Virus record (IMG/VR): IMGVR_UViG_3300008735_001079
Span: 1-39,202 of that record
Reading direction: 5' to 3' (one strand)
Origin: a virus
Length of the DNA stretch: 39,202 nucleotides
The position numbers and the translations under genes were made by a program. The notes under the pieces are model-generated. The model did no database searches. It saw only the letters and a program-made list of their open reading frames with translations, and was not told the DNA's origin. Shown piece after piece: positions 586 through 37,915 of this stretch; the first letter of the stretch is position 1, and each line of letters begins with the position of its first letter.

Positions 586-1614
586 CTAGAAGTTGTACTC
601 ATTACTTGTAGTAGACGAAGAAGTCCCTCCTGTAAGAAAACCAATTCACAGCATAACTGATTTTTGTTGAGGAACTCTTAGGCTGGCTCTCTGCTGGCTA
701 GAATGAATTGTATCCAGCATGTACCACTCTCCATTAGTTTCTGTTTTATTAGGATAATTTTCACCGTTTGAAGGGGGCGAAGTACCAGCACTCACATACA
801 TATATACAATATAAGAAGATATATTTTTTAACTGATTTTCTGATACGGTCACAGAACTACCGGATGCGTCTTCGTAAGTACCAGCAGATTCATTAGACAT
901 GTCATCCCATGTAACTATAATTTCATTAGTAGGTACTTTTGTGCCAGCAGCATTACTGTTACTGACTTCTACACCTGTTACTCCTATGTACTCGTCTAAA
1001 TCTGGAATACCGTTAAAGGTTATAGATGTGTCATCTGCAGTAATAGTGTCGTTGGATGAATTTAAAGCTGGCTCACTGGAAGGGTTAAAAAAGAAAACTT
1101 TGAAATCATAAGTAGAGGGCTTATCTACCAATTCTATTGGAAAGTCAGTCTCTAGCAATCCATTTGCTTTATCATAACCGGGAGTATCGTCTCCTATACT
1201 TAAAGAAAATAGGACATTATAATCTGAGGATGATGATAATTTATAAAAAATATCTACTTTACCTAAGATTCCTGTGGATGGTTGTAGATTACTGAATGCA
1301 AATATACCTTCACTACCTTCCCCCTGTTGTCCTGAAAATGGGTTACCTTCTGTAACGCCTAAAGCAGGTGGAGTTTGAAAAGTTAAAGGAGCTGTGTCCT
1401 CTGCATCGAATTCGTCAACTATGCTAATATTTATATTGTCATCTGACGAGTACCCCATACCATAAAATTTTATTAGGTATGGACCTGTTACTAAATTTTT
1501 AAACTCATAAAAACCATACTTATCAGTCACATCCACATCAACTCTAATGCTATTAGAATTATATATGGAGGCCATTACACCACTTTTGTCTAGTCTAGCC
1601 TTATAAGAAGCCAT
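586..1614 (-). CDS. Tail adhesin-like protein with Ig/FnIII-like segments (TGA=Trp)
   Basis: 342 aa when the TGA at 646-648 is read as Trp (residue 323). The frame then runs LWIGFLTGGTSSSTTSNEY to a TAG at 586. The N-terminal segment, with DKYGFYEFKNLVTGPYL, looks like the carboxypeptidase-regulatory/prealbumin-like beta sandwich that often decorates phage surface proteins. Residues around 200-300, with TGVEVSNS and EIIVTWDD, look like a fibronectin type III strand pattern. These domain calls are by eye. The gene follows the previous stop by 6 bases and belongs to the fibre end of the tail operon. A standard-code reading would clip only the last 20 residues. Confidence 0.75.
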
Positions 1615-1620
1615 GACTTA

Positions 1621-2040
1621 CTAACCATTATCTGATATTTTCGGCTTTCCTGTTATGGAAATACTGCCAGTAAATGCACAATCATTATTTGGTGAGGTAT
1701 CATCGGGGTCAAAGGCATCAATAATCATAGTTCTTGTTGATCCTTGAGCAGCAGTGATATCGACATTTATAGACTGAGAAAAAATTCCGGTACCAGAAAC
1801 TTCTAGTATAGCCGCCATAGACTTTTGACCACTTTGGTAGACTCGTATAATTGCTGGATCAGACCCACTTACTCCGTCTGCTCCCTTACAATCAAAAGTA
1901 ATACTAGTGAGTGTAAAGTCAACAGTTAAGTTTTCTCTATGTAACTCTCTAGCTCCTTCTGTAATTCCTGAAAACCACTTATCTCCGGTTGTAAGCCCAG
2001 AAGGCTCACTATCTAAAACCATTTTTTGTGTAAATCCCAT
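1621..2040 (-). CDS. Small tail-associated protein, unknown function
   Basis: 139 aa, ATG at 2038-2040 to TAG at 1621. An AGGAAA-like ribosome site lies just upstream, and the previous gene stops about 10 bases before the start. The protein is acidic, rich in Ser/Thr/Gly and predicted mostly beta. It begins MGFTQKMVLDSEPSGLTTGDKWFSG, a lead often seen in small fibre-tip or head-decoration proteins that describe something being attached. No family is recognised. Its place between two fibre/adhesin genes suggests a virion surface role. No TGA codon is used. Confidence 0.7.
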   Translation of the reverse strand: MGFTQKMVLDSEPSGLTTGDKWFSGITEGARELHRENLTVDFTLTSITFDCKGADGVSGSDPAIIRVYQSGQKSMAAILEVSGTGIFSQSINVDITAAQGSTRTMIIDAFDPDDTSPNNDCAFTGSISITGKPKISDNG

Positions 2041-2049
2041 ATCTATTTC

Positions 2050-5000
2050 CTATGCGCTAAAGGTTGTTGAGTGCCTGTTAATTTTTGTTTCTCCCTTATT
2101 AGTACTACCAGTGGAGTCTTTTATAATAATATCCTTACCAGTCTGTTCGCCGTTACCCATAGTAATTTCATCCCCATTTTTATCAAAAGCATTAAAAGTA
2201 ACGTCTCCCGTTCCTACGTCTTTGGTTACTAACCCTGAAACTACTGTAACATTCACAGGCATCTGCACCAAAATCTGGTCCCCAGGAGCTATACCACCAC
2301 CACCACTGACTATATCACTGTAAAGTTCTGTTCCAACGGGTTGTTTATTCTGTAAAGGCCTAACCTTTACGTACCACATAGACGGCGTATTAGTAGTAAC
2401 AGGAGTAAGTTTGTTCCCAGTTATAAATTTTGTGACGCTTGTATCAGATGCAGAAAAAGAGGGGTTCTCTGTTTTTGAGTAAACTACTTCAAATTCATGC
2501 GCGCTATTTTGATCATCTGTCGAATCGTACCAACCACTTCCCACAATCTCAATATTAAATCCAAATACACTGCTCGTTAAAGATATACCCGCTGCTGTGG
2601 TTATGTCCGGCAGCTCATGTAAGTAATTTTGTGAGTAAGAAACATAGCCTACCCCGTCATGATCAGGATCATATGTACCTGCTGGCATTCTTTCAAAGCT
2701 ACCTTCTAAGTAAGAGTTTTTACCCTTTAATTCAAAATACCATCTTTTTCCTAAGTTTAACTTTACGATATAATTTGGGTTAGTTACAAACTCAGAATCT
2801 AGCATATATGTTTCTACATACCCAGTTGGTTGTGATGTATTTAAATCTAACTCGATACATTTTAAAACATAATCAGTAACATGTCTATCTACAATGCGAG
2901 CAGTAGCTGCAGAGTCTTGGTCACTTTGTGAGAAGACTCCTCTTATTGTAACTTCAATGTCAGTACTATTATCTACTATAGACAATATCTCATAAGAATT
3001 AGATGTTTCTTCTAAGTACAATGTTTTTCCAGAAGCTAGTAGTAAATCATTGCTAGACATAGTAAAATGGGTAAGCTTCACGGTATTTCCCCCTACTGAC
3101 GGAGCTTGACCTGCTACAAAACTTAATCCATCATAATTCCACTTCAATGACACAAATCCAGCCTGCTCTTCTTTATTAGATGTCGGGTATATATCATACA
3201 GTCTGAAATTTGTTAATGTTGTTGGGGTTCCTGCTACCGTAGCTACCATTCTTTGGTTATCAGTTCCAAGACCTAGATAAAATTCTTCATTTGTAACGCC
3301 ACTTATATATACATTGGATCCTTCATCGCCTCCACCTAATGTAAGTCCATATATAACTGCGTCATGTAAAGTCGTCACTCCAGTAAATTCAGAAGATTGT
3401 CCTATACTTGCTCCACCCGTCCTAACTTCATTAGCATCAATATCAAGTATACTCATGTTAGCATAGCCCCACCCAAAGGTACGGGTACCGCTTAATGTTG
3501 GGTCTTGGACTAAGTCTATATCGTCTGCTAGAATTTTAGGAGAATATAAAACTCCGTCTAAGCTTCTAAAGGAAGCAACGTGTCCTCCAGGGCCTGTGAC
3601 TTCCATATCTGATCCATTGACCTGAAAGTTAAATCCACCAGAAGTTGCAACGCCACCAAGATTAAAATTGGCTGCACTACCAGAGTCATTAAAAAATCTA
3701 GTGTCACCTTTTACTAAAAGTCTAGAGTTTTCAGTGTTTATAGGCTTGTTAACCCCTAAAGCCAGGTTTCCAGACCTATCAAATCCTGCACCCATATTAG
3801 TAAAGTTTTGACCAGATGCAGTTGGAACGCTCAAACTTTTAATTGATGCTTCATTTATTGTTGATGAGTTACTAACATCTAAATTTTCTATTGTCCCATA
3901 TGCATTATATAACGTTTGTATAGATGCTGACCCCCCAGAAACTGAAAGTCCGCCGTCCCCAACAATGTTAACTTCTTGTAACTGTGCAAACCCTCCAGTT
4001 AAATTCTGTATTGTTCCTAACTTATTCACTGTAAGATTTCCAGACAAGTCTGCATCTTTTGAGTAAATAGTGTCCGATGATTTTATGTTTCCGATAACAT
4101 GAAGCATTTCATCTGGAGATAGATTATTAATTCCCACATGGCCATCAAGGTATCTTACTAAAATTCTGTCATTACTACCAGTTTTAATTACTAAATTTGA
4201 GGTAGAGTCTGTCTCTATAAATGATTCGCTTGTTCCAGTATATACACTAATAGAACTAGTATCATCAGCGTTATGGATAGTCAAAGCTTTCCACAAGTCA
4301 GACGTCTGTTTAATATGTAAAGATGATATATCTGTAGAAGATGGTACGTACCCAACACCAATAGACCCGTCTGTTTTTAAATATAGTTGATTGTCCGTTA
4401 TAGAGTTATCGTAGTCAGCCTTCAAAACTAAATTCTCATCATAAGAACTGATTTTTCCGGTATTTACAACTACTTCTTTATTAAAATAAAATCTCTCTCT
4501 ATCTGTTTGTATGTGAGTTCAATTACTGTTTTGTGAACCGATATTTGTCCACCCACTTGCTGTTTGAATTCTTATTGATCCGCCATCTTGGTCGCCCCTA
4601 ATACTTCCTTCTAGGTGCAATGCTTCATCAGGGTTTGTTTTATTTATACCTACTTTCCCATCACCAGTAACGGTGACTACCCCAGCAACTGAACTTCCAT
4701 TAGGGGACAGGTTTATAATATCAGGAGAACCCTCCGTATAAAAAATACCGTGATCTGGCATATCAGTAGAATAAGCAACTCCAAAAGTGGCTTCTGCTTG
4801 CCCACCCATATATACTCGTCTCGACGTACTAGGAGTAAATTCTATATTACCATCAATTGTTAGCTCTGAAGTAGGAGTACCAGTTTTTATCCCAACCTTT
4901 CCTTCGCTTTTATTTACAATAAAAACATCGTCAGATACAAGTATATCATCACCAAACTCAACCTTACCTTGCTGTTTAAAATTTCCTGTAGAATCCCTAT

Positions 5001-5706
5001 CTTTTAAAATTACATCATTCTCGTCAAGAACATTCTTTGATATTTTTAGTGAGGATAAAGATCTCAAGTCTATAACACCATTTGAATCAGATACCCATGT
5101 TTTACTCGATGAGTCAAGAAATGTGAAAGTACTCGTATTAATTAATTTTCCAGTACTATCAGTTTTTACTATTGCTAATGGAACTTCATTCAATGGGTCT
5201 ACAATTAAAGATGAATTTAGGTTATCCCCAGAAACCAATACTTTAATAGAAGGTATGAATGAATCGGTATATAAAGTGTTTCTTTTAGAATAAGGAGTTT
5301 CTCCCGAAGTATCATATAAAAAAGCATTCATTGCTGACACTGGGTTACTACCTACTTCTTGGAATGATCCTTTTATAAGATATATAGTATCAGCTTGTGT
5401 AGTTATCCCTAATTCCGGGAGAGAAAAATATGTGTTTGATTCTAAATTTAGTAGGTTACCATTACTAAAAAATGCCTTACCTGGTTGAACTAAAAATTGT
5501 GTTGGTACCCCGGATGTTGGCTGTGAAAAAACTTTTAAAGTAGAGTCTGATATAGAAACGTCCCCGTTTACCAAGTCGACTGGAATTGCAAAAGAATTAA
5601 ATAATGTATTCAGTCTTTTAGACAAGTTTGATTGTACAGCTACCTGAAGATCGTCAAATACTTTCTCTAAATTCTGTACTGTTCCTGATGGTATTTTTAT
5701 TCTCAT
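2050..5706 (-). CDS. Large tail fibre protein with VGI-type repeats (TGA=Trp)
   Basis: 1218 aa when TGA at 4519-4521 is read as Trp (residue 396), followed by THIQTDRERFYFNKE. No stop of any kind occurs until the TAG at 2050. The N-terminus resembles fibre attachment regions. From about residue 265 on there are repeats of the type GKVGIxxxxPxxxLxxxGxI: VGIKTGTPTSELTIDGNIE, VGINKTNPDEALHLEGSI, VGINNLSPDEMLHVIGNIK. These are typical of beta-helical phage fibres. The C-terminal part is less repetitive and may carry the tip or receptor-binding domain. An AGGAAGA ribosome site precedes the ATG. It lies next to a second fibre gene with the same repeat, which suggests duplication. Confidence 0.85.
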
Positions 5707-5723
5707 ATTTTTATCTTCCTATT

Positions 5724-8453
5724 TTATAAAGGTGCTATTCATTCTACTGTACAATTAAATAACATACAAAAATCTACATGATCCCTGTCATCCAGTTTAA
5801 AAGTAAGTTGTTTAAATCCAGAGGATGTGCAACGATACACCCCGTGAAGTGAATAATACTGAACAGTATTACCATTACTATTATAATCAGATGAGTATGA
5901 TACTCCTACCGTAGTATTGTCTACTAATGCCTTTATGTACGACTTTGCATCATCTCCGGAGTAAGTATAATTTGCTCCCACATTAGCTACTATTCTATAA
6001 TATCCAGATTTAGGTCAGTAAGTATACTTAGATGAAGAGCCTGTCCCATTAAATGGAGCATTTATTGAAGTAGCGTTGTCTGTATCTGACCAGCCTATCC
6101 TTCCATGAACAGGTGATGTATCATCAGCAAATTTTCTTGAATTTCCGGAGCTATACTCAACAATTATCGTGGTAAATGGGGCACAATAATTAGGAACATC
6201 ATTACTTGAGTTTACCTGAAACTGATCAGCAGTTACCTTTCTTACATCTTTTATGTCTTTATTGGGCTGAAACTGTAGATCAGAGTATACCCCAATATCA
6301 GTTTGTCCGCTTAACTTAGTTAAGTTATTTACAGAGAGTGCATTGTTTACTGTAATATCGTTAGTAGTATAAGCCTCAGTTACGTTTAAAGTACCGATAG
6401 TAAGAGTTCCGGCAACTGTAAACCCATCAGCTTTTATATTTCCACGAACATGGAGCAACTCATCTGGTGAATCAGCTTGATTATTACTTATTCCTATCTT
6501 TCCATCATATGCACGTAAAAATACGTCGTTTTCTGTATCAGATCCTTTTATAAACTTTATAAAAGCTGATCCTGTGTCGTCCTGCATCTCTAAAACAGGG
6601 GACCCTCCGATAGTATTAGTCATTATATATGACGATGAGTCCCTTACTCTGAAGGCATTATTTAAGTTTGTTGCATTAACATCAAGTTTACGTTCAGGGT
6701 TATTAGTATTGATACCTATATTACCTGATGTATCAACTATAAACTCCGGCACTACATTGTCACCTTGTTTAATAATATAGTCTGATGCATTTCCTCCGGA
6801 ACCGTTGGAGTCATCCATCCCAATCATCCAGTTAGTATCACTACTACTATTTACAAAGTTTATAGTTCTTTGTCCTGTTCCCTTAATCCGTACTATTGAA
6901 TGATCATCACCCTCAAAAACTGCTGATACATCATTGGATTCTGATGCCGAGGAGTATACATGTAACTTACCCTCCGGAACTGACTTATCAATACCTACCC
7001 GACCGCCCCCAGTAATAGCAATATCTTCCCTATCGGAGTCAGTACTATTTATAAATTTTAAAGTACCATTTTGGTTTTGTATTCTGTAGTTATCCCCAGT
7101 AGTATCATGTATTTCTAATCTAGCGTCTGTATCTTCTATTCTAATTTGTCCACCAACATGTAAAGTTTGTTGTGGGTTAGTTTCGTTTATTCCTACTTTA
7201 CCGTTGTATGTTACCCTGACTCGTTCTTCGTTATTTGCTCTAAAAATTAAGTTGTTGCTTGTTGCTCCTATCCAATTGTAATTAGCTGTGGATCCCTGGT
7301 CCTCGAAAGATATAAAGGAACCTGTCCCACTATTCTTTACTCGTATAATATTTCCATTAGCGCTAGTCACGTCTATATCTAGACCACTAACGGTAGGAGA
7401 GGTAGTACCTATACCTTGATTACCAGATACATATAAGTCATTTGATAAAGTTGTTGCACCAGTAACTTCCAGAGTTCCAACTAATGAAGAATTACCATCT
7501 ACGTTTAAGTCACTGTCAAAATCTACATTACCTGTAGAGAGAAGAGTTCCGTCTACTTTAGTGTCTCCAGACACATGTAGTTTATAAGTATCTAAACCAC
7601 TTGAAGTTTGTATACCGACATTACCGGTGGTACTCATTACTATACCATCAGTACTACCAAACGAAGAGTTCTGTATAATCCTAAAAGTACCGTCATCATG
7701 CCTACCTACGTAAGATTTTGTCTCAGTACTATCTGAAAATTTTACTGCTTTATAAGAAGAATTTTTTATTGTTATGTAAGAACTAGCATCTGAACTTTCG
7801 AAGGTTGCAAGATTATCGCTAGAGTCATATATAGTTAGTGGATCAGAGGACACGCCCGTAACATCGTTCCCTATGGATAGGTTTTCTGACATCAATACTT
7901 GACCTTGAACATCCATTTTAAATCCAGACGTTAAAGTATTCCCTTCTCCAAAAGTTAAAGTTTGCCCGGTCTTTACAAGTTGTGCATCTGAGTCAAGAGA
8001 TATCTCTAGAGTTCCGTGTGGTTGATTTGGAGTTCAGTCTGTCGTTATGCCATTAGAGCCTGACACCGTAATTACACTTACTTCATTTGTATCATCTACA
8101 GCCATCTCGTAAGATGAATAGTTGTTGTCGTTATCTTCCGGTGAATCAAATTTTATTAGTGTGCTGTGTAAGTCTTTTCTACCTATATTTAGTGCATTAT
8201 CGCCAGAAACCCCTAAATCATCTACTGAATTTTCAGATGTAATAGTTTTGTTTTTTAAGGTTTGTGTTGCACTCGTACCTACTAAAACACTGCTAGCTGG
8301 GGCGTTGGGACCTATAGCTTCGTAAGTTTCTGAAGTCGCGTTGTCAACGTCGAATACATCCAAGTCCGCATCAATACTAGCCATATTACTATTCATAGTA
8401 TTCATACCTTCTCTAGGAGTCATCCCTGACGTAATTAATGTTATATTTGCCAT
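5724..8453 (-). CDS. Tail fibre protein with VGI-type repeats (three TGA=Trp)
   Basis: 909 aa. TGA codons at 8034, 6015 and 5739 fall at residues 140, 813 and 905, and the gene ends at TAA 5724. In the standard code this gene breaks into three pieces, and the last TGA lies four residues before the end. Repeats along the shaft include VGIQTSSGLDTYKLHVSGD, VGINETNPQQTLHVGGQI, VGIDKSVPEGKLHVYSS, IGINTNNPERKLDVNATN and IGISNNQADSPDELLHVRG. The C-terminal 110 residues, around WPKSGYYRIVANVGANYTY, look like a compact jelly-roll tip of the kind found at fibre ends. The family call rests on the repeat pattern and position. The receptor is unknown. Confidence 0.85.
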
Positions 8454-8477
8454 ATCTTTTCTTATCCGTTATCTAAA

Positions 8478-10385
8478 TTAAGGTAAATCTTCATAAGGTA
8501 GTTCTGCATCTCACAGTGTTCATCCGTCTTCTCCCCAAGTTGTTCACTCGCTTGTACCAGATACTTTTACCAAATGCTCAGTTTCGACTGAATTATCTGA
8601 ATCGTAAGTTGTCAATTTAAATTTATATAGCCTGTTAGTAGGTGGTACGTTAGAGACGATAGCCGACGATTCTAAATTTGTATCATTAGCTATAGTCACC
8701 CCTAAGTCAGAACCCCCATAACTTTCTATTGGTTCTACAAGCTCTCATTTATAATTTAATATATCGTCTTCAGGGTCAGAAACCAAGCCCGAAAGTAAAA
8801 TATTTGCTGAAGATGATGTTGGATCATACCACTCATAATCTGAGTAAGTAACTACTTCCGGAGGTAAATTAAAAACATTTGCTTTTAAACCAGGAGGTAC
8901 CCTGTCAGTAAGAAATTTATCTATAAAGAGTTTGTGGCCTTTAAATACGTCCTTCACACGGTTGGTAACTTGTATACCCAAAGTATGGTAAAACTCCTGT
9001 GGATTTGATACGTCTCCTAAGTATCGACTCTCGTCGTCTATAATATTTACTTTACCTCCCTCGTTCTCATGATAGGCACACTGGTAATAAACCGTACTTG
9101 GAGTGTCTTTCAATGGAGTAAAGAACACATTCCCTACTTCAGACTTCCCGTTTTCAACTAATCTATTTTCTTCGTCCCTTAATGGGTACCCGCCTCTAAC
9201 ATCTGATGAGAAGTAAAAAGCGTGGTTATTGGATTCAACTTCAAATTTATAGCGTTTTCTTCTGACTAATGAAATAGATTTTCTTTTTTCGCCATTTATA
9301 GAAAATTGATTTTTACCTCCGTCGTAATATCCATCATCTCCCGCTTCTTTTAAGGATGTGGTCACTTTAAATGTATCTCCGTTTCTTGTAAGTATGCCAG
9401 ATATCATAGAGGGGTCACTACTGTAATCATACATCGACACACCTGATACCAATGAAGAGAATTTATCTACAGTATCTCCTACTGATGGGGAGAAATGAGA
9501 GTCACTAGTAACCTCATAAACTATGTCCCCCGTCAATCCGGATATAGTAATGTAGTTATTGGAAGAATTACTAGTTAAATTAGTTACTACTCCAGACTCA
9601 TAACTAAAAGGCACACCTAAAATAAGAGAGTACAAGTTTTGTAAATTTTTTAAGGTAGGATGTTTTTTAGATGTCGAGTACATTGCCTGGGTTAGCTTAG
9701 TTAAATGTAAAGCCCACTCCTTCTTTTTCTCTAGGTAATTCTTATTCTCTTCATGCCACCCGCTTACAAAGGGTTCGTACCGACCACTAAGTATAATTTT
9801 TTCTGGGTTAGGATCACCAAATGCTGAGAAAAATACTCCGGTTAATGACGGAACTAAACTTATTCCCTCAACAGAGTAGTACGACTCCCCGTAGTTACCA
9901 GGCATCTGATTTGTATCCAAGTTTATCCCACTATTGGCAGTGGTGTATTCGTTACCGTTGTTTTCATAAGAATTTACATCGGTTAAAAATTTTAAATAGT
10001 GTAAGTTATGGATCTCGTAATCCGTGCCTTCTTGTAAAACTTGCCCAGTGTTTATACCACTTAATTCAGGAATTGACAAGTACATATTGTCTCCTGGCAG
10101 TTTGTAATAGTGGAGACCACTAATCATATTTATAGTGTTCTTCTCGTCACCTTCAAAAATTATATCGTAAATTTGGTGACCATGTTCTATGTACCCTCTT
10201 GATAGATCTAAATATTGAGTAAGATTAGATTGATACAGATCATATGTTAATCCTTCTGTTCCTTCGAACAGTGCAGTTCAAAAAGCTTCTATTCTTTCCT
10301 TACTTTCTTTATCAAGCTTACCATAAAAAGTTCCTAATATATCCCATAGAGCTGAAACATTAATATTTGGGTCTGGGGAAAACAT
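8478..10385 (-). CDS. Tail protein with cupredoxin-like and PKD-like domains (five TGA=Trp)
   Basis: 635 aa. TGA codons at 10278, 8745, 8544, 8520 and 8511 (residues 36, 547, 614, 622, 625) are read as Trp. The start ATG at 10383-10385 lies 2 bases from the previous TAG. The N-terminus (SALWDILGTFYGKLDKES) resembles tail/baseplate-attached proteins. Around residues 375-450 a cupredoxin-like stretch shows His388, then YYQCAYHENEGGKVNI with Cys436 and His439. The usual fourth copper ligand Met is Glu442. Residues ~515-610 form a PKD-like sandwich with DDILNYKWELVEP, where the W is encoded by TGA, as expected at that family position. The last 23 residues are Trp-rich, mixing TGG and TGA. Confidence 0.85.
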
Positions 10386-26471: not shown

Positions 26472-26486
26472 CAAAGGAAACTAAAC

Positions 26487-27198: not shown

Positions 27199-27202
27199 TA
27201 TT

Positions 27203-27565
27203 ATGAGTAATAAATATGACTTCAGTGATTTAGGGACACCTCAAAATAACGACGATTTAAAAAACAGACCCAATTTTAGGATTGTGAAGACGTGCGGTAA
27301 CTGTAAATATTTTATGTCATTCACAAGAATAAAAAAACATGGGAATTGCGGAGTAACTAAAATGAAATTAAAAAAAATAAACAAGAGTAGAAAAGAGTGC
27401 TATGATGAATCTATACGTAACCAAATAAAAGAAGAGTGGCCTAAATGTCACGCTACTACTGTTTGTGAAAACCATGTTATAAGGTCAAGAGCTTATAACA
27501 TAAGTATGGTGTCTGATTGGTGTGAAGTAGAATTTGGTGTAGACGGGATGGTGAGAGAAGACTAA
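27203..27565 (+). CDS. Small cysteine-rich protein, probably zinc-binding
   Basis: 120 aa from ATG 27203, 4 bases after the deformylase stop. An in-frame ATG 13 codons upstream lies inside the deformylase gene and is less likely. Cysteines fall as CGNC, then HGNC, ECYDE, KCHATTVCENH and DWCEV, which suggests one or two metal sites. No family is recognised. The end overlaps the start of the next gene (TAATG). Confidence 0.65.
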   Translation: MSNKYDFSDLGTPQNNDDLKNRPNFRIVKTCGNCKYFMSFTRIKKHGNCGVTKMKLKKINKSRKECYDESIRNQIKEEWPKCHATTVCENHVIRSRAYNISMVSDWCEVEFGVDGMVRED

Positions 27566-29043: not shown

Positions 29044-29046
29044 AAA

Positions 29047-29415
29047 ATGTTAATTGCTTTTTTAATAATTTCAATTATAGCTCTAAGTTTAAATACATAC
29101 TATACTATAAAGACTGTAAGAAGTCTAAAGGCTAAATACTCTAAGATTTTATCACAGAAGAAAAGCAGTGAAGTAGTTACGGGCCATATAGCAGAACAGC
29201 TAGCCCCCTTCTTAGATAACTTTCCTTATGACCCAAAGCAAGTAAAATTCTTAGGGCAGCCAATAGACTATATACATTATGGAGATAATCAGATTACTTT
29301 TATTGAGGTAAAATCTGGTAAGTCTAGGTTATCAAAAAAGCAAAAACATATAAAACAATTAATCGAAAACAACCAAGTCTTTTGGGACGAAGTGAGAATA
29401 CATGGGAAAAATTAG
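29047..29415 (+). CDS. Holliday junction resolvase-related endonuclease, membrane-anchored
   Basis: 122 aa. The N-terminal hydrophobic stretch (LIAFLIISIIALSLN) is a likely membrane segment. The rest matches the Endonuc_Holl pattern: SEVVTGHIAEQLAPFLDNFP, FLGQPIDYIHYG, ITFIEVKSGKSRLSKKQ. The Asp in PIDY and Glu/Lys in EVKSGKS fit a PD-(D/E)xK nuclease core. It overlaps the primase-helicase start by 14 bases. The leader is A-rich (AAAATAAAAAATG) with no Shine-Dalgarno. Confidence 0.8.
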   Translation: MLIAFLIISIIALSLNTYYTIKTVRSLKAKYSKILSQKKSSEVVTGHIAEQLAPFLDNFPYDPKQVKFLGQPIDYIHYGDNQITFIEVKSGKSRLSKKQKHIKQLIENNQVFWDEVRIHGKN

Positions 29416-32137
29416 TACAGATATATTTAAAAAACTTTTCGTCCACAGGGACGATGTCTATGCTATACAGCAGACAAAAGGTTCTTATATTCCAGTAAAA
29501 GAGCCTATTGATGAAGATATAATAGAAGCACATTTGACTGGACGACAGACAATAGGATTGTACCAAGTGAAGCCGGAAGAGAATACCATTAAATGGGCTT
29601 GCTTAGACATAGACCTAACTAAATCAGTGTGGAGTAGTGAAAGTTTTAATATCGAAGACTGGAAGGATAAGTTATTAGAACAGGCAGAGATTTCAAAAAA
29701 ACTTCTTAGCAATAAGGGGATACCATCTTATATTGAGTTTTCAGGAAATAAAGGTTACCATGTATGGGTTTTCTTTGAAAATCCGGTTCCGTCTAGTATC
29801 ATAAAGAGTGGTTTTGAAAGTATATTTTCAAATATGCGCCCTACCGCAAACGGGATTGAGTGGGAGATATTCCCTAAACAAACTCAAGTAAATAAAGGAT
29901 CTTTTGGAAATCTCGTAAAAGGGCCGAACGGGTATCATCATAAGTCTAAAGTCTTTAGTGAATTTATAGATAATTTATCAGTAAGTACTATTGACTACGC
30001 TGATACTATGTCATTTTCTAATGAGTCAGCCCCTTATACGGAACCTCTAAAAAAATGCGAAGCTTTGCAAAATATGTGGGATACGTGTTTAGAGCAAGAA
30101 GAGTCCCCTAACTTTTTTAACGAAATAGTTGGGTACATGTTTACTAATATGGGGAAGGAGGCTGAAAGATACGCCACACAAAACTTCTTTAGCAGAATGA
30201 AGAACTATGATTCGGAGTTGACAAAAAAGAATATAGGAGTTATGAAGACAAAGATGCGTGAAGAGGGAGAAGGTTACCTTCCTATAACGTGTGAAAAGCT
30301 TCAAGACGGAAAGTATGGTAGCATCTGTTCTCAAAAATGCTCGGCTATTGGAAGAGCAAAAAGTCCTATAGCTTTCTACCACTGGTCCACCCAAGAAAAA
30401 GAAGTTGATATAAATGCTTTAGATAAATCAGATTTTCTTTTTCAGAGAGGGAACTCATATTACGAAAGACTTCCAGGTAAGGAAGATACAAAAATAAAAA
30501 AACTTTCAAGTTTTACAATGGATATAACTAAAGATACTACAATTAGTACAGGCATGCCTGAGTATGACAAAAGATTATTTGAGGGGGTTATAAAGAAGAA
30601 GAAGGATGATATAGACTTCGAAATTTCTTCGGATGACTTTTCTAATGACGAGAAATTAAAAGCTTTCATCTATAAGGCTTTAGGGCCAAATAAACTATTA
30701 ATAGATAATATACAATCTATTAAAACTGCTATTCAAAAGTATGCAGATGCAGAGCCTGTATTCATACTAAAGCAGTTTGGATTTAATGATTTAAAGGGCA
30801 GCGATAAGTATCCGTACAAGTATATGAGTCCGTCAGTTATTGTAGATAAAGACGGTATAAGAAGTAATGACGACACGTTGGTTAGCTTAGAAGGGGAAGA
30901 ATTTGCGGAGTGTTTAGATCTACAAAAAATAGACGATGAAACTTTTATCGCATTAAAAAAACATATACAAGAGGATTTAATAAAAGTTGTAAATGAAGAA
31001 GTCACCTATGGTGCTTTATCCTTTACATTCTTACCAATCTTATTCCCGTTTTTAGAAGGAGATAGAACAAAGTTTACTTACTTTGTTAGAGGGGAATCAG
31101 GAACAGGAAAGTCATATACAATGCAAGCATTCCAAAACTTTTACGGTGAGTTTGACTCTGTACCGACTTGGAGTTCCACAGCTAATTCCTTGGGGAGGAT
31201 AGGGTATTTTATGAAAGATTCTTTATTTATGATTGATGACTTTAAAAAGAGAATGTTCAATAAGCCGGGAGCTTTTGATGGTGCCTTAACCCTTATGCAA
31301 AACTACGCAGATAACACAGCTAGGTCAAGGATGAATGCTAATATGGAACTAGCAAAAACATTCGTTGTCAAAGGGTGGCTAGCATCCACTGGTGAGGATA
31401 CACCGTCCGGTGAAGCTTCAAATCTTGCAAGGTTAATACCAGTTACGTGTAACACAAAGTATAAAGACATGGTTCGTGGTAAAAGAATCCAAGAGATGAA
31501 AAAATTCTACCCAGGATTTACGGCTAGATATATGCACCATTTATTTAATGTAGCACCTGTACTATTAAATAAAGTAATGCAAGATAATATGGATCATTTT
31601 TATAAGAAAGTAGGCGGGCAGTCAAACGATATTAGAATAGCTAGAAATGTTTCATTGTTAGCAACAAGTTTTAAATTTATATCGGACTTTCTTTGGAGTA
31701 AGAAAAAGGCAATAGAAGCGCAAGAAACTTTTATGCGTATTCTTGATGTACAAATCATGGACGTAGCATCGGAAGCTGCAGAAGAGTTGGCATCTGATAG
31801 ATTTTTAAAAGGTTTACAGGAATTAATGTCCAGCAACAAGGTAAGGATGTTACCAAATTATATGGAGGATGTCGAAGAAAATAACCATACACCTATAATC
31901 GGGTACTGGGGATCGCACAAAGAGACTAAGGAACCTGTAGGGTACTTAGTAGTTAACTTAGCTTTTAAAGAAATACAGTCATTTTTAAGAGCTTCAAATG
32001 AAAGTTTAACTCACACAAAGAAAGCTATAATACATGAGCTTTATGAGAATGGAATGATATATAATAAAACAGTACAGTCAAGAAAAATGCGCGGTAGGTC
32101 TGTACGAGTAATAATAGTAAAACCAGGTTATTTATAA
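29402..32137 (+). CDS. Primase-helicase (AEP-type primase fused to P-loop ATPase)
   Basis: 911 aa. The N-terminal domain resembles the archaeo-eukaryotic primase of TOTE-type systems: HLTGRQTIGLYQV, then CLDID (Asp69 and Asp71, metal binding) and FSGNKGYHVWVFFE (Ser114 and His120). A Cys cluster (CEKLQDG, ICSQKCSAIG) near residue 305 may bind zinc. The C-terminal half has Walker A GESGTGKS (~564-571) and Walker B LFMIDDFK (~613), and a segment GEASNLARLIPVTC typical of phage replicative helicases. It probably primes and unwinds at the fork. Its end overlaps the next start (TAATG). Confidence 0.88.
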   Translation: MGKISTDIFKKLFVHRDDVYAIQQTKGSYIPVKEPIDEDIIEAHLTGRQTIGLYQVKPEENTIKWACLDIDLTKSVWSSESFNIEDWKDKLLEQAEISKKLLSNKGIPSYIEFSGNKGYHVWVFFENPVPSSIIKSGFESIFSNMRPTANGIEWEIFPKQTQVNKGSFGNLVKGPNGYHHKSKVFSEFIDNLSVSTIDYADTMSFSNESAPYTEPLKKCEALQNMWDTCLEQEESPNFFNEIVGYMFTNMGKEAERYATQNFFSRMKNYDSELTKKNIGVMKTKMREEGEGYLPITCEKLQDGKYGSICSQKCSAIGRAKSPIAFYHWSTQEKEVDINALDKSDFLFQRGNSYYERLPGKEDTKIKKLSSFTMDITKDTTISTGMPEYDKRLFEGVIKKKKDDIDFEISSDDFSNDEKLKAFIYKALGPNKLLIDNIQSIKTAIQKYADAEPVFILKQFGFNDLKGSDKYPYKYMSPSVIVDKDGIRSNDDTLVSLEGEEFAECLDLQKIDDETFIALKKHIQEDLIKVVNEEVTYGALSFTFLPILFPFLEGDRTKFTYFVRGESGTGKSYTMQAFQNFYGEFDSVPTWSSTANSLGRIGYFMKDSLFMIDDFKKRMFNKPGAFDGALTLMQNYADNTARSRMNANMELAKTFVVKGWLASTGEDTPSGEASNLARLIPVTCNTKYKDMVRGKRIQEMKKFYPGFTARYMHHLFNVAPVLLNKVMQDNMDHFYKKVGGQSNDIRIARNVSLLATSFKFISDFLWSKKKAIEAQETFMRILDVQIMDVASEAAEELASDRFLKGLQELMSSNKVRMLPNYMEDVEENNHTPIIGYWGSHKETKEPVGYLVVNLAFKEIQSFLRASNESLTHTKKAIIHELYENGMIYNKTVQSRKMRGRSVRVIIVKPGYL

Positions 32138-32892
32138 TGGAAATACACCCGTTGTATAGTAGCAGCTCTGGTAATTGTTGTAAAGTGGCCTCTTCGGAGG
32201 CTACTTTGCTAATAGACGCAGGAGTTAGTTACAAGAGAATACTTGAGGCATCTGAAGAAGATGACTTAGAAATATCAGCCCTTTTTATAACGCATGAACA
32301 TCATGATCATGTTGCAGGAGCAGGGGTTGTAGGAAGGAAACAAGGATGCCCTATTTATATACCAGAGGAATCATTCATTGCAAAGGAAAAAATATTTAAA
32401 AATTGTGATGTACAATTCATAGGAGGTGGGGATGAGATTAAAGTAGGAGATATGCTAGTAAAAGCATATACTACTAAACACGACAGTAAAGCTAGTTTAG
32501 GATATACAATTACAGATACTACCTCAAATAAAAAGTTTGGATACTTAACTGACTCAGGTAGTATATCAAAAGTAATGAGAGTAGCTTTAGAGTCTTGTAA
32601 CGCATACTTTCTAGAGGCTGACTATGACCAGCAGATGCTGGACGATTATGAAAAATATGATGAGCTACTTAAGATGAGAATATCAGGTCCTTTCGGACAT
32701 TTAGGTAACCATCAAATATCAGAGTATATAGAAAATGATGTTAACCTAGAAAAAGTAGAATGGATTGCATTTGGACACTTGAGTTCTAGGACTAACACTC
32801 CTGACATAGTATTAGAATTGATGAAAAATACCTTTCCAAGGTTTGAAAGTTTGTTTTTAGTAGCACCACTATCAGAACCGTTGTTGCTTTAA
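32137..32892 (+). CDS. Metallo-beta-lactamase-fold nuclease (YycJ/WalJ-like)
   Basis: 251 aa. The MBL motif THEHHDH (residues 52-58) is preceded by LLIDAGVS. Other family features are SLGYTI with GYLTDSGSIS (metal Asp) and FLEADYDQQML, LKMRISGPFGHLGNHQ, which parallel the ESNHD and GHLSN segments of WalJ-type proteins. These are metal-dependent hydrolases, several with 5'-3' exonuclease activity. It sits between primase-helicase and an exonuclease, consistent with DNA processing. The start overlaps the primase stop. Confidence 0.85.
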   Translation: MEIHPLYSSSSGNCCKVASSEATLLIDAGVSYKRILEASEEDDLEISALFITHEHHDHVAGAGVVGRKQGCPIYIPEESFIAKEKIFKNCDVQFIGGGDEIKVGDMLVKAYTTKHDSKASLGYTITDTTSNKKFGYLTDSGSISKVMRVALESCNAYFLEADYDQQMLDDYEKYDELLKMRISGPFGHLGNHQISEYIENDVNLEKVEWIAFGHLSSRTNTPDIVLELMKNTFPRFESLFLVAPLSEPLLL

Positions 32893-32901
32893 TTAAATGA
32901 A

Positions 32902-32945
32902 TTAGTTATATTAAAGAGAGAAGTAAATAAAATTAATATAACTAA
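32902..32945. repeat. 13-bp perfect inverted repeat in an intergenic gap
   Basis: TTAGTTATATTAA (32902-32914) and TTAATATAACTAA (32933-32945) are perfect complements around an 18-base purine-rich loop. It lies in the 68-base gap between the MBL nuclease and exonuclease genes. No T-run follows the stem, so it is not a standard terminator. It could be a protein-binding operator, an RNA processing site or a start-site control element for the exonuclease. Confidence 0.6.
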
Positions 32946-32960
32946 AAATCATAAAATTAA

Positions 32961-33617
32961 ATGGAAACTATTACTTTCGATATAGAAACAATACCGCAAA
33001 CAAAACTAACAGATATTCAACAATACGAGTTGGATAAAAAGTTAGAGAGAAGGTTTGCTAATTCCGACGAACCTACCGCTGAGGAATACGAATCAGCTAA
33101 GTCTTTAATAATGGGAACTAATCCATATTTTGGAGAAATAGTGTGTATAGGTCTCATGAAAACAACTTCAGATGGGAAATACGATACTATAGGATTAGTG
33201 GGGGATGAGAAAGATATTTTATCTAGATTTTGGAAAATAGTGTCAGGCTTTAGAGGTCTGTTCATATCATTCAACGGACTGTCTTTTGACGTGCCTTGGA
33301 TTATAAAAAGATCAATGAAGCATGACTTGAAAGCTACAAACCAAAGCTTTTTAAATACTAAAAAATTCTTCAAGTACCCTCATTGGGATGTTCACGTTAT
33401 CATGGCTGACTATGATAGATTTAAAGGTGCAAGCCTAAGACTAACTTGTGATCATCTAGGAATACCGTCTCCAAAAGAAGAAGAAATAACAGCAGAAAAC
33501 GTCTCCGTTGCGTACAGAGACGGAAGAATACAAGAAATAAAAGAGTACTGTTTAAGAGATGTTCAAGCAACGTATAATGCGTACTTAATATCAAAAAATT
33601 ATACTTTTATAAAGTAG
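32961..33617 (+). CDS. PolB-like 3'-5' exonuclease
   Basis: 218 aa. Exonuclease motifs are complete: Exo I FDIET (Asp7, Glu9), Exo II FNGLSFDVPWI, and Exo III YCLRDVQATYNAY (Tyr196, Asp200). The size and the sequence around DVHVIMADYDRFKGASLRLTCD fit the predicted PolB-associated exonuclease family that stands apart from a polymerase. It would remove mismatched or free 3' ends during phage replication or recombination. It starts after an A-rich leader with no ribosome site and ends at TAG 33617. Confidence 0.88.
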   Translation: METITFDIETIPQTKLTDIQQYELDKKLERRFANSDEPTAEEYESAKSLIMGTNPYFGEIVCIGLMKTTSDGKYDTIGLVGDEKDILSRFWKIVSGFRGLFISFNGLSFDVPWIIKRSMKHDLKATNQSFLNTKKFFKYPHWDVHVIMADYDRFKGASLRLTCDHLGIPSPKEEEITAENVSVAYRDGRIQEIKEYCLRDVQATYNAYLISKNYTFIK

Positions 33618-33625
33618 AACAAAAA

Positions 33626-33637
33626 TAACCAAGAAAA
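33626..33637 (+). promoter_or_regulatory. TAACCAAGAAAA leader motif, copy 1
   Basis: The 12-mer TAACCAAGAAAA lies 3 bases before the ATG at 33641. An identical copy lies 4 bases before the ATG at 38618. Both starts lack a classical Shine-Dalgarno, so the motif may serve translation initiation or a shared regulator. Confidence 0.35.
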
Positions 33638-33640
33638 CTA

Positions 33641-34579
33641 ATGAGCTTATTTGAAAAAGCGAAGCCTAGAGCTGAGAGGCTAAAAATGCTTGTGTATGGT
33701 GCATCTGGAACTGGAAAATCTGTAGTAAGTTTACACTTTCCTAAGCCGGCTGTTATCGACACAGAAAGAGGGACTGAGCATTACGGGGAGTACTTCGACT
33801 TCCACCGTATCCAAACAGTGAGTCCTAAGCAAGTAAACAAAGCAGTAGATGAGCTACTAAAGGATCCTACAGGTTTTAAAACTTTTGTAATTGATTCGTT
33901 TAGTAATTTATACGACTCTATCATAGAAAAACAAGTAGCTAAAATGCGAGTAAAGTCAGGTAACCCTAATTATGAAATTAGGCCACTTGACTACAAGTTT
34001 ATCAAGTCTGATGTTAAAATCTTAATAACAAAGATGCTTTCGTTAGATATGAATATAATAGTTACAGCTAAATCCAAACCTTTGTATAGTACAGACAAAG
34101 ATGAATTTATGCAAGTAATAGGAACTACTCCAGAAGGGCCTAAAGATTTGCCCTATCATTTTGATATTGTGCTTGAATTATACACAGATGAAAACGGTAA
34201 TCACATGGCTAAAATGGTAAAAGATAGGACTAATAAACTTCCACATGAGTTCGAATTTAATTACAAATCTTTCACCCAATATATTGGGATAGAAGGCTTA
34301 GAAAGGGAAGCGGTAGTATTCAATCAACAACAAAACTTAGAGCAGAATGAAAGTATGAGTAGAAGTGTTGACATAGAGTACAAAGGAAAAGAGCTAAAGA
34401 CGGCTGGTGTAAAGGCAGATACTTTAGAGAAACTTGAGAAAGCTGCTAGCAGCATGGACCAAAAGGATTTAAAAAAGAAACTAAAAGCTGATTACATGGT
34501 AACTAGCGTACTTGATCTTAAGCAAGATGAAGCCGAGTTACTATTGTCAGACTTAACAACTAAAACCAATAATAAATAA
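33641..34579 (+). CDS. RecA/Sak4-like phage nucleotide-binding ATPase
   Basis: 312 aa. Walker A YGASGTGKS (Gly20-Ser27) and Walker B TFVIDSFSNLYD (Asp85) fit the AAA_24/Sak4 group of RecA-like proteins that assist single-strand annealing in phages. DTERG after the first beta strand is a further family feature. The last ~90 residues are charged and likely linker or partner-binding. It is followed directly (TAATG overlap) by a DUF669 protein, the usual partner in phages, thought to be a single-strand binding protein. Confidence 0.85.
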   Translation: MSLFEKAKPRAERLKMLVYGASGTGKSVVSLHFPKPAVIDTERGTEHYGEYFDFHRIQTVSPKQVNKAVDELLKDPTGFKTFVIDSFSNLYDSIIEKQVAKMRVKSGNPNYEIRPLDYKFIKSDVKILITKMLSLDMNIIVTAKSKPLYSTDKDEFMQVIGTTPEGPKDLPYHFDIVLELYTDENGNHMAKMVKDRTNKLPHEFEFNYKSFTQYIGIEGLEREAVVFNQQQNLEQNESMSRSVDIEYKGKELKTAGVKADTLEKLEKAASSMDQKDLKKKLKADYMVTSVLDLKQDEAELLLSDLTTKTNNK

Positions 34580-35010
34580 TGGGTATTAATTTTAAAGAAG
34601 TAGGAGAAACTCAGAAGAGTGGGGACGGATTCGAACCGTTGCCAGAAGGACGTTATAACTTAGTAGTAGAAAACGCTGAGTTAACGACAGCATCGACTGG
34701 TAATGAGATGATAAAAACTACATTTCACGTAACAGAAGGTAGCTTTAAGAACAGGAAATTATGGAGCAATTTTGTTTTGACTCCTAAAGCTTATGGATTC
34801 TTATTTGGGTTCTTACGAGCAGCTGGTAGCGATCTAGTTACTCAGGAAGATGTAGAACCAAACGATATAGCAGCCGGACTTGTTGGATTGAAAGTATCAG
34901 CGTACACCGAGCCGGGGAAGACTCCAAACGGTAACCCTACAAACCCTTTATCTAAATATAGAGAAGTTACTCAGGGCGAAGAGCTGACTGGGGCAAGTTT
35001 ATTTGAGTAG
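34579..35010 (+). CDS. DUF669 protein, probable single-strand DNA-binding partner
   Basis: 143 aa. GFEPLPEGRYNLVVENAELT, IKTTFHVTEGSFKNRKLWSNF and a C-terminal EELTGASLFE give the DUF669 pattern, an OB-like fold with an acidic C-terminal tip. DUF669 genes stand next to Sak4-type ATPases in many phages and are inferred to be SSB-like. It ends at TAG 35010, 24 bases before the terminator, and closes the replication operon. Confidence 0.82.
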   Translation: MGINFKEVGETQKSGDGFEPLPEGRYNLVVENAELTTASTGNEMIKTTFHVTEGSFKNRKLWSNFVLTPKAYGFLFGFLRAAGSDLVTQEDVEPNDIAAGLVGLKVSAYTEPGKTPNGNPTNPLSKYREVTQGEELTGASLFE

Positions 35011-35033
35011 TATCTTGTAACAAAGCAGTTTAT

Positions 35034-35063
35034 AGGCGGGTGTATTTTATGCCCGCCTTTTTT
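35034..35063 (+). terminator. Rho-independent terminator after the replication operon
   Basis: A 7-bp stem AGGCGGG (35034-35040) with CCCGCCT (35052-35058) and an 11-base loop is followed by six T. It is the only clear intrinsic terminator in the window. It divides the block without TGA codons from the downstream genes in which two TGA=Trp codons occur. Confidence 0.9.
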
Positions 35064-35089
35064 AAATTAAAAAACAAAAGATATTTAAT

Positions 35090-35395
35090 ATGAATGAGAA
35101 AGAGATAAAGGAAGCTGAAGATAAATTAAAATTAATTGAAAACGGTCTGAAAGAAAAAGCAGAAGAAATTGATGGTAGAGAAGCCTCTGTTAAAGAACAA
35201 GAGGAAAATATCTTAAAAAAAGAGAAGAAGTTATTAGAAACTTTAGGAGTAGTGGACTCTAGTTCTTCTTTTTCTGAGACTGTAAGTATTGTTAATAATT
35301 TATATAATTCATATGTTGCTATAAGTGGTAATGACGATGGCCTTATAGATACAATACAAAAAATAATTGACGCAAGAAAAGCTTTTAATAACTAA
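35090..35395 (+). CDS. Small coiled-coil protein, unknown function
   Basis: 101 aa. Residues 1-50 are almost all Glu, Lys, Leu and Ala and predict a coiled coil (EKEIKEAEDKLKLIENGLK). The rest (VSIVNNLYNSYVAISGNDD) is a short helical tail. First gene after the terminator, with an A-rich leader. No family is recognised. Confidence 0.65.
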   Translation: MNEKEIKEAEDKLKLIENGLKEKAEEIDGREASVKEQEENILKKEKKLLETLGVVDSSSSFSETVSIVNNLYNSYVAISGNDDGLIDTIQKIIDARKAFNN

Positions 35396-35405
35396 GGTCA
35401 TTGAT

Positions 35406-36095
35406 ATGAGTATATGGGCTTCGTTGTCAAAAAAATACAAATACGATAGCGTAGAAAAACTGAAATTAACAATAGGTATACCTACTATTAATCAGGCTGA
35501 CTTATTGGAGGAGAGCTTGCAAGATATCTCAAAAAATATGGGTGATGTACAAGAAGTTATAATAGTAGATAATGGAAATCAAAATTTTAATATACCTAAT
35601 AATTTAAAGGATAAAACCCACATACATAAACCTGGAAAAAATTTAGGGGTGTCTGCTAGTTGGAATTATATTATAAATAAATTCGCTTCTACTGGAGGTC
35701 ACCTAGCTATTCTAAACGACGATATAATATGGGGCAAAAGTCTTAGTCAAGTACAGTCCGTACTAGATGAGGTTGGAGATTACAACGTGCTGACTATGGG
35801 GGCATGTTGGTCATGTTTCTTTATATCTAAAGAGTGCATCAATAAAATAGGGTTATTTGACACTAAATTTTATCCCGCTTATTTTGAGGACAATGATTAC
35901 GCTTATAGATTAAAATTAAATGATACAGAGCACAGTAATATAAAAGGCCTGGATCCCTTGGTTTATCGAAAGTCAATGACAATTAAAAAAGACCCGAACT
36001 TGAATAAAGATTTTAGCTCTAATAGGAGGTACTTCATTCAAAAATGAGGCGGACTTCCAGGTCAAGAAAAGTTTAAAAAACCTTTTAATAAATAA
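35406..36095 (+). CDS. GT2-family glycosyltransferase (TGA=Trp)
   Basis: 229 aa when TGA 36045-36047 is read as Trp214. The GT-A pattern is clear: LTIGIPTINQADLLEESL, VIIVDNGNQ, GKNLGVSASWNYII, LAILNDDIIW (DD metal motif) and YFEDNDYAYRLK (catalytic ED). The end reads FIQKWGGLPGQEKFKKPFNK, in which the TGA gives the Trp of the KWGG-P-E-F motif seen in related phage glycosyltransferases. That favours Trp over Gly. The start is ATG 35406, since a TTG upstream lies in the previous gene. It probably modifies phage DNA, virion proteins or host glycans. Confidence 0.85.
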
Positions 36096-36096
36096 C

Positions 36097-36768: not shown

Positions 36769-36782
36769 TTACAGAGATATAA

Positions 36783-37274
36783 ATGATAGATAAAAGAAAT
36801 TTAGGTGGATGGGCTATTAGTGAAGAACTTCTTTATCACATAGAGCAATTAGTACCGAAAGGAAGCACAATACTTGAGTTAGGTAGCGGTACAGGTACTA
36901 AGGAATTAGTTAAAAACTATGAGGTGTACTCTATAGAACATAATAAAGAATGGGTAAACTTTTGCAAAGATAGCAACTATATTTATGCGCCTATAAGAGA
37001 GTATAACGATTATTCTTGGTATGATGTGTCTATTTTAAAAAATACTTTGCCAAAAAATTATGATCTGATAGTAATAGATGGGCCTCCTGGAAGTATTGGA
37101 AGGATAGGATTTTTAAAAAATATTGATATATTTAATGTACGTGTTCCTATCATAGTAGATGATACGAATAGGATACGCGAGATGGAACTTTGTAATTCTT
37201 TAGAAGAGTTACTGAGCAAGAAAGCCAGTCACTATATTTACCCAGAGGCAGAGAAAGGATACTCAGTGCTATAA
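36783..37274 (+). CDS. SAM-dependent methyltransferase-like protein
   Basis: 163 aa. ILELGSGTGTKELVKNYEVY carries the glycine-rich SAM loop with an acidic residue after the next strand (YSIEHNKEWV). DLIVIDGPPGSIGR is a motif IV-like strand and VPIIVDDTNR a later strand. Small-molecule or sugar methylation fits its place between glycosyltransferases and a sulfotransferase-like gene. The substrate is unknown. Confidence 0.75.
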   Translation: MIDKRNLGGWAISEELLYHIEQLVPKGSTILELGSGTGTKELVKNYEVYSIEHNKEWVNFCKDSNYIYAPIREYNDYSWYDVSILKNTLPKNYDLIVIDGPPGSIGRIGFLKNIDIFNVRVPIIVDDTNRIREMELCNSLEELLSKKASHYIYPEAEKGYSVL

Positions 37275-37319
37275 AGCGAAAATAAACTAACTAGAAACTT
37301 AAATTACAGGGGAGATAGT

Positions 37320-37915
37320 ATGAAATTTATAATTACAGGAACAGGGAGATCTGGAACCGGTTTTACTTACAAAACTTTAGAGCTGAACGGGTTTAAAAGT
37401 GGGCATGAAGCTGTTTTTACTCATACCAAAGATACCTTAAAGAATATTAAAGATTATGATTGTGATGTTAGTTGGTTAGCAGCTCCTTTTTTAGCAAATT
37501 ACGATATCCCAAAGTTTCATGTGGTAAGAAATCCAGTGAAAGTGATTGAAAGCTGAGTAACTAGAAAATTTTTTATGAAAAAAAGTGATCCTCATTATTC
37601 GTTTTTAGTACAGCATCTGCCAGAACTAAAAAAAGTGCAAGATCCAGTGGAGCAGGCAATTTTTCATGTCGCGAATTGGAGCAAAAAAATATCTAAAATT
37701 ATTCCAGAATATTATAAACTGGAGCATGACATACCAAAATTGCTAAAAAAACTTGGGGTATCATCTAATACGAATTTATATTTAAATCAGAAATATAATA
37801 CAAATATACCGTCAAAACAAAAATATGAGTTAAAAAAATAGACGTATCATCTAAATATTGGAATATGCTCTTACAGCACGCTGAAACTTACAGATACGAC
37901 ATAACTATTAAATAA
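37320..37915 (+). CDS. Sulfotransferase-like protein (TGA=Trp and possible -1 frameshift)
   Basis: TGA at 37554-37556 is read as Trp79 (VIESWVTRKFF). TGTGRSGTGF at the start is the PAPS-binding P-loop and VVRNPVKVIESW the second PAPS-binding segment. The zero frame ends at TAG 37839 after TTA AAA AAA. A -1 shift on the A7 run (37832-37838) continues as IDVSSKYWNMLLQHAETYRY to TAA 37915, which looks like the natural family C-terminus and ends 4 bases before the next gene. Length is 173 aa without and 198 aa with the shift. AGGGGAG is a good ribosome site. It may sulfate a glycan made by the neighbouring genes. Confidence 0.75.
37832..37838 (+). other. A AAA AAA heptamer, possible frameshift site or indel
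   Basis: The zero frame reads TTA AAA AAA TAG, which makes A AAA AAA a slippery heptamer in the right phase directly before the stop. The -1 frame carries 25 residues of plausible coding sequence. A homopolymer error in the assembly would give the same picture. Confidence 0.5.

Follow-up and report, generated by a model that had tools for sequence, protein, structure and literature searches.

The viral record IMGVR_UViG_3300008735_001079, a stretch of 39,202 bases analysed here at its full length and referred to as the window, is part of a tailed-phage genome whose late genes use TGA as a codon for tryptophan (Trp). When the window is translated with genetic code 4, the fragments of a minus-strand late block (586-24711) join into full-length genes, as a preliminary description of this DNA had claimed, and none of the recoded genes is interrupted by TAA or TAG. 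Our recount of the in-frame TGA codons gave exactly the 26 of that description, 24 on the minus strand and two on the plus strand (36045 and 37554, in an island of decoration genes). A further TGA at 25035 was left out of the count, since the gene probably starts downstream of it. The 32 complete genes of the window end in TAA (20) or TAG (12) and never in TGA; the earlier tally of 23 TAA, 11 TAG and no TGA differs only by gene calls.

Most of the in-frame TGA codons can be compared with those of a sister phage, G003 (IMGVR_UViG_3300024261_000044), with a DNA identity to the window of about 80%, and with more distant recoded (G006, G007, G026, G034 and G044) and standard-code (G008, G014 and G015) relatives. 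Along the minus strand, where each TGA is given by its 5' base, a tail or virion-type gene encoding 342 residues (586..1614) has its TGA at 648 (646-648), facing TGG in G015, and a large tail-fibre-like gene encoding 1218 residues (2050..5706) has one at 4521 (4519-4521) that is also TGA in the sister. The next tail-fibre-like gene (5724..8453, 909 residues) has TGA at 8036, which is TGG in G003, and at 6017 and 5741, both TGA there. A virion protein of 635 residues with a weak PKD-like domain match (8478..10385) has five, at 10280 (opposite TGG in G015), 8747, 8546, 8522 and 8513 (the last two opposite TGG in G003). The baseplate or tail gene at 10387..12006 (539 residues) has TGA at 11871, 11685, 11238 and 10785, three of which face TGG in G003, and 11685 faces TGG in G015 too. 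The baseplate wedge or Baseplate_J protein (12006..13628, 540 residues; PHROG 6, PF04865) has TGA at 12749, which is TGG in G003 and TGA in G026, G034 and G044. Three late genes follow, one of 699 residues (14070..16169; TGA at 15071, 15008 and 14861, two facing TGG in G003), one of 377 (16905..18038; 17462, which is TGA in four recoded relatives, and 17078, opposite Phe in G003) and one of 876 (18042..20672; 19325, where G026 has TGG while G003 and G034 have TGA, and 19115). A long late protein of 1085 residues (20676..23933), possibly the tape measure, as its size and position suggest, has TGA at 23333 (TGG in G015) and 22934 (TGG in G003).

The plus strand carries an early or replication block (25089..35395) encoding a helicase, a peptide deformylase, a tRNA nucleotidyltransferase, an AEP-type primase, an AAA ATPase and others, with no in-frame TGA in any of them. 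Behind it, the decoration island includes a GT2 glycosyltransferase (35367..36095, plus strand; PF00535), whose TGA at 36045-36047 is TGG in G003, G044, G014 and G015, and a gene encoding 173 residues (37320..37841, plus strand) with a TGA at 37554-37556. In the standard-code relatives G008 (85706-133034) and G014 (43429-92415), the interval between the flanking orthologues houses a tRNA array with a tmRNA; the corresponding interval of the window (35367-37841) has shrunk to this small decoration-gene island, itself with TGA codons.

That the in-frame TGA codons are sequencing errors or marks of decayed genes can be practically dismissed. An independent assembly, G004 (IMGVR_UViG_3300007508_000607; 64,007 bases), agrees with the whole window at 99.99%, so that sequencing errors do not account for them; many of the sites are kept as TGA in relatives, which refutes this reading, and neither TAA nor TAG occurs within any of the genes.

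Alignment with homologues shows what the codon encodes. Of the 26 TGA codons, 24 could be aligned to the sister phage, which has TGG at 11 of these sites, TGA at 12 and a Phe codon at one; of the remaining two, 648 lies opposite TGG in a relative that is more distant, and no homologue aligned at 37554. Reverse swaps, from TGG in the window to TGA in the sister, were also seen. In the recoded relatives, Trp is the commonest residue opposite TGA, at 74/101 sites in G026, 64/86 in G034 and 25/34 in G044; next come mainly Tyr and Phe, and Ser and Cys are rare. TGA is therefore Trp in this phage, as the preliminary description had proposed, and in relatives of the group: the opposite residues are mostly Trp and not Gly, with G006 as the exception. 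Both places where it had found Trp fitting agree with the relatives, since the site in LNYKWELVEP (8747) is TGA in two of them and that in QKWGGLPGQ (36045) faces TGG in four.

Only late and decoration genes use TGA, and the early genes avoid it. The TGA/TGG counts in G004 are 27/68 in structural genes, 28/51 in decoration genes (glycosyltransferases and methyltransferases) and 0/71 in early genes, including the window's early block. Expressed as TGA/(TGA+TGG), structural (27/95) and decoration genes (28/79) both differ from early genes (0/71; Fisher p = 5e-8 and 1e-9, respectively). The early zero is not an effect of base composition, because the A-ending share of Lys, Glu and Gln codons is about two thirds in all three classes (64% in early genes). 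The same split is repeated in orthologous genes of six recoded relatives: structural versus early TGA/TGG counts are 27/68 and 0/71 in G004 and, in the six, 28/52 and 0/69 in G003, 24/42 and 1/61 in G006, 7/5 and 2/50 in G007, 41/33 and 0/69 in G026, 32/34 and 0/65 in G034, and 24/33 and 0/60 in G044. These orthologous genes have no internal TGA in the standard-code G008, G014 and G015, in which TGA serves as the stop of 72/239, 40/136 and 35/213 open reading frames, respectively. An unrooted tree, built from eight concatenated proteins, places the three in one group that a single branch sets off from the recoded phages, and thus one code change would suffice. The reassignment claimed for the phage as a whole therefore holds for the meaning of the codon and not for the whole phage; it is a property of late and decoration genes.

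This partition bears on a rival explanation, in which UGA already means Trp in a code-4 host and the phage merely uses its host's code. Agreeing with such a host are the lack of TGA terminators in the window, the lack of tRNA genes in G004 and in the contig that probably holds the head genes of this species (see below), and the many table-4 phages of cultured collections that infect Mycoplasma or Spiroplasma (PMC11210395). However, in Mycoplasma, Spiroplasma and their phages, which likewise read TGA as Trp, the whole genome is recoded, whereas here the early genes are free of TGA and near relatives stop at it. With a code-4 host and 64% A-ending Lys, Glu and Gln codons, drift to TGA would be expected among the 71 early Trp codons; the early zero would be explained by a suppressor available late, but not by such a host. 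The syntenic relatives stop at TGA, and recoded relatives encode a UCA-anticodon tRNA of their own. A code-4 host is thus unlikely in our judgement.

G004 has no head genes. Through the capsid protein of relatives, we reached G019 (IMGVR_UViG_3300007508_000014; 41,833 bases), which shares its sample number with G004 and carries head genes, several of them with TGA. Because its head genes are 84% identical to those of G024, a contig whose overlap with the sister species is 99% identical, G019 is probably the head half of the window's species. Three further capsid-protein relatives, L183 (3300010883_000371), L190 (3300028299_000364) and L205 (3300046532_001594), look TGA-recoded, with code 4 raising coding density by 0.20-0.33; they are short contigs with no tRNA on any. 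A search by amidase family reached G046 (48,994 bases) and G045 (64,739 bases), which are 99.97% identical over their common part. G046 has the sample number of the sister phage, and the far end of G046/G045 aligns colinearly, at about 70-80%, with the start of G019. The end of G045 in turn matches the beginning of another head contig, G022, exactly over 101 bases.

Searches for tRNA genes found none in the window, where the preliminary description had likewise seen no suppressor, and none in G004, the sister contigs or G019; the syntenic standard-code relatives have 17 to 27 each. Relaxed ARAGORN settings gave many low-quality calls within genes, among them a 'tRNA-SeC' at G004:61643-61724 in a glycosyltransferase, and these were rejected as noise. 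On the other hand, a lone UCA-anticodon tRNA occurs in each of the large recoded relatives G026 (205.5 kb) and G034 (210 kb), far from arrays of about 30 tRNAs and directly upstream of a lysis gene, the endolysin N-acetylmuramoyl-L-alanine amidase (PF01510). G044 has it at the same place upstream of the amidase, and it is present in both G045 (3835-3933) and G046. Among all amidase loci that have upstream sequence, the tRNA precedes the amidase in 11/11 recoded loci (four distinct lineages) and in 0/11 non-recoded loci. The amidase locus of the window's own species falls in the assembly gap between G004 and G019, which is where the tiling of the sister genome places the tRNA. The arrays of G026 (L260:5393-5469) and G034 (L265:15365-15439) also include a CUA-anticodon tRNA, yet TAG still terminates genes; the same puzzle has been described for phage Lera (PMC12386605).

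We compared four versions of the UCA tRNA, from G045/G046, G044, G034 and G026, which are 64-83% identical in pairs. In every version the acceptor stem has 7 bp, the anticodon loop reads CUUCAAA, the D stem exceeds the usual length and a long variable arm forms a stem and loop. ARAGORN called three of them selenocysteine tRNA (tRNA-Sec) and missed that of G034. On the Rfam tRNA-Sec model (RF01852; gathering cut-off 47 bits) they scored 48.5 (G026), 38.5 (G045/G046), 32.5 (G044) and 31.1 bits (G034). The score is unspecific, since an ordinary tRNA-Ser of G026 reached 50.3 bits, and we rejected the match as proof of a selenocysteine origin. With tRNA-Sec the four share the UCA anticodon, the loop, the long variable arm, the extended D stem and G73; they differ from it by a 7-bp acceptor stem in place of the usual 8, by A1-U72 in three of four versions (G1-U72 in G026) and by Trp-like outer acceptor pairs. 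The folds show a clear 7-bp acceptor stem and not the 13-bp acceptor plus T stem (8/5 fold), although tRNA-Sec forms with a 12-bp acceptor-T (AT) stem are known from some bacteria (PMC5330540).

The acceptor stem and position 73 of all four versions are nearest to phage tRNA-Trp, and in none nearest to tRNA-Ser, with matches to tRNA-Trp at 8.5-10.25 of 15 positions and to other isotypes at 7.2 at most. The stem reads AGG...CCU with G73, and G2-C71, G3-C70 and G73 are present in all four; these three are bacterial Trp determinants, with A1-U72 a minor one (PMC9976931). It appears that the tRNA is probably charged with Trp, and its features are most economically read as those of a suppressor that carries Trp on an unusual body. 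The likely suppressor has the anticodon of the tRNA-Trp(UCA) foreseen in the preliminary description, and its acceptor stem is Trp-like, but it is no ordinary tRNA-Trp: all four versions carry the long arm instead of the short variable region of a type I tRNA.

Two other explanations concern how UGA is decoded. In one, the long-armed tRNA would insert another residue at UGA, such as Ser, Gly (as in code 25) or selenocysteine, in line with its ARAGORN label and with two of the four versions matching the tRNA-Sec model well. We consider this very improbable: the great majority of residues opposite TGA are Trp, then Tyr and Phe, with Ser, Gly and Cys rare except for Gly in G006; the swaps of TGA and TGG against the 80%-identical sister behave as synonymous; the UGA sites, unlike those of tRNA-Sec, encode Trp and are scattered through ordinary virion genes; and the tRNA-Sec model scores the tRNA-Ser(UGA) of G026 above the UCA tRNA of the same phage (50.3 versus 48.5 bits). 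In the other, an ordinary tRNA-Trp(CCA) would read UGA near-cognately, helped by reduced activity of release factor 2 (RF2), and the UCA tRNA would have a different role, its long arm suggesting charging with serine. The recoded G026, G034 and G044 do encode a tRNA-Trp(CCA), and one with a 4-bp anticodon stem has been proposed as a UGA reader in some bacteria (PMC13092985). However, the tRNA-Trp(CCA) of G026, G044 and G015 has a normal 5-bp anticodon stem, and the standard-code G015 has this tRNA too, while the UCA tRNA can pair with all three bases of UGA, tracks recoded loci without exception and has the Trp-like acceptor stem. Near-cognate reading is therefore improbable, slightly more so than a code-4 host.

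The tRNA nucleotidyltransferase of the early block (27565..29043, plus strand) is CCA-adding-like, with PolyA_pol, RNA-binding and HD domains (PF01743, PF12627 and PF01966), and may mature or repair tRNAs. The gene also occurs in the recoded G003, G006, G007, G026 and G034 and is absent from the standard-code G008, G014 and G015; a strict tie to recoding was rejected, because the recoded G044 lacks it. The UCA tRNA of the sister ends in GCCCA and the other versions in GCCA, and we only suggest that a CCA-mending enzyme could be relevant.

We propose, with good though incomplete confidence, that the window belongs to a contractile-tailed phage that reads UGA as Trp in its late genes, most likely in a standard-code host, with the UCA tRNA of its relatives as the likely decoder. 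The early genes, free of UGA, would be readable at once after infection, and the late genes with UGA would be completed only once a phage-made UGA-reading tRNA is present. The decoder would most likely be the long-armed UCA tRNA immediately upstream of the endolysin amidase, which, judging by its acceptor stem, the host tryptophanyl-tRNA synthetase (TrpRS) probably charges with Trp. The window's own phage would carry it in the unassembled stretch between its two contigs, and the net effect would be a gating of late-gene translation. The preliminary description had left the decoder as either a suppressor tRNA or a host that also reads TGA as Trp; we favour the phage suppressor over the host because of the early avoidance of TGA, the standard-code syntenic relatives and the UCA tRNA at its fixed place. 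A search for such a tRNA, which it had suggested for the full genome, found a UCA tRNA at the lysis locus of recoded relatives and none in G004 or G019.

Several observations weigh against this proposal. In the window's own species the tRNA was not found in G004 or G019, whose amidase locus is unassembled, and a motif search of all viral contigs yielded no copy assignable to it. G046 and G019 are linked to this phage species by shared sample numbers and synteny and not on one contig. A long variable arm with G73 favours seryl-tRNA synthetase (SerRS; PMC9976931), so that Trp charging is not assured. Genes of the RF1/RF2 family (PF00472) and the TrpRS family (PF00579) are absent from 15 contigs, most of them incomplete, so that neither would account for how host RF2 is outcompeted; an accessory RF1 or TrpRS, reported for some code-4 phages, is not an obligatory part of such recoding. 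The residues opposite TGA are mixed in G006, perhaps owing to its many TGA codons in fast-changing tail genes. As to the host, the sole cellular match in a host search of genome contigs was a 3.9-kb contig in a Bacteroidales metagenome-assembled genome, which is not conclusive. A near-identity search of the phage collection with the window gave no match. Protein searches of that collection gave weak matches of the AEP primase to Gordonia phages and of the sheath to Vibrio, Salmonella, Bacillus and Eggerthella phages, which are uninformative on the host.

Homology indicates that the lineage is one of contractile-tailed, sheath-bearing phages: its sheath is homologous to annotated tail-sheath proteins and Baseplate_J is present, rather than the Crassvirales gene set or a podovirus-type tail. 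CrAss-like phages recode TGA as Trp or TAG as Gln, predominantly in their late genes, and host-encoded or very divergent phage suppressors have been proposed where recoded genomes show none (PMC7886860). Like the present phages, they concentrate TGA as Trp in structural genes, have near relatives with the standard code and in some cases carry a UCA suppressor; the present lineage differs in its contractile tail and in a probable suppressor that is long-armed and placed by the lysis gene. In the zeta-group phage Lera, another of the phages known to reassign TGA to Trp in late genes, a TCA suppressor predicted to be of Trp or Arg isotype lies among 26 tRNAs (PMC12386605). Code-4 phages with a UGA suppressor, TrpRS and RF1 have been described by Borges et al. 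2022, as reported in PMC10746230; in that account they similarly have in-frame stops in late genes and hosts thought to use the standard code, and differ from the present group, which has no RF1/RF2-like or TrpRS gene in the 15 contigs noted above. A survey recognised a UCA suppressor tRNA in 11/73 table-4 phages (PMC11210395). The literature searched, which was covered in part, yielded no description of a phage UCA suppressor with a long variable arm. Recoding of TGA to Trp in late genes is thus already known, and the architecture and lysis-locus position of the likely suppressor appear to be new.

Other features of the group can be noted. In the late block, the protein encoded at 16169..16891 (minus strand; no TGA, one TGG) has a weak, below-cut-off match to sigma-70 region 3 (PF04539), and a second protein that looks like a sigma factor lies in the early block (G004:12921-13739); as far as such resemblance goes, the two possibly control late transcription. 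Just past the end of the window, an apparent ribonucleotide reductase stretch of 653 residues (G004:18240-20234; L008) is 99% identical to that at G006:35142-37115 (L111), while other early genes of the two are mostly 35-75% identical, as if the reductase had been recently exchanged. The reductase-like protein of the sister (G003:36380-39361) is about 330-370 residues longer than that in G004, and the terminase and portal of G024 (2061-4718 and 6255-9119) exceed those of G019 by about the same length, as if all three contained inteins.

Taken together, the window and its relatives offer a clean case in which only late genes are recoded, with standard-code relatives side by side, and a candidate suppressor of a previously unremarked type at a fixed place, which can be tested on one short RNA. 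Tentatively, and with a little less than even confidence, we suggest that this phage group built a UGA-to-Trp suppressor by setting a Trp-type acceptor stem on a selenocysteine- or serine-type tRNA body, which would be charged by TrpRS, ignored by SerRS and the selenocysteine machinery, and retained next to the lysis gene to act as a late-translation switch. Should it prove a genuine Trp suppressor, some suppressors that seem to be missing from TGA-recoded phages may be hidden under the tRNA-Sec label of standard software, and charging of a type II tRNA by TrpRS would be relevant to how synthetases discriminate among tRNAs.

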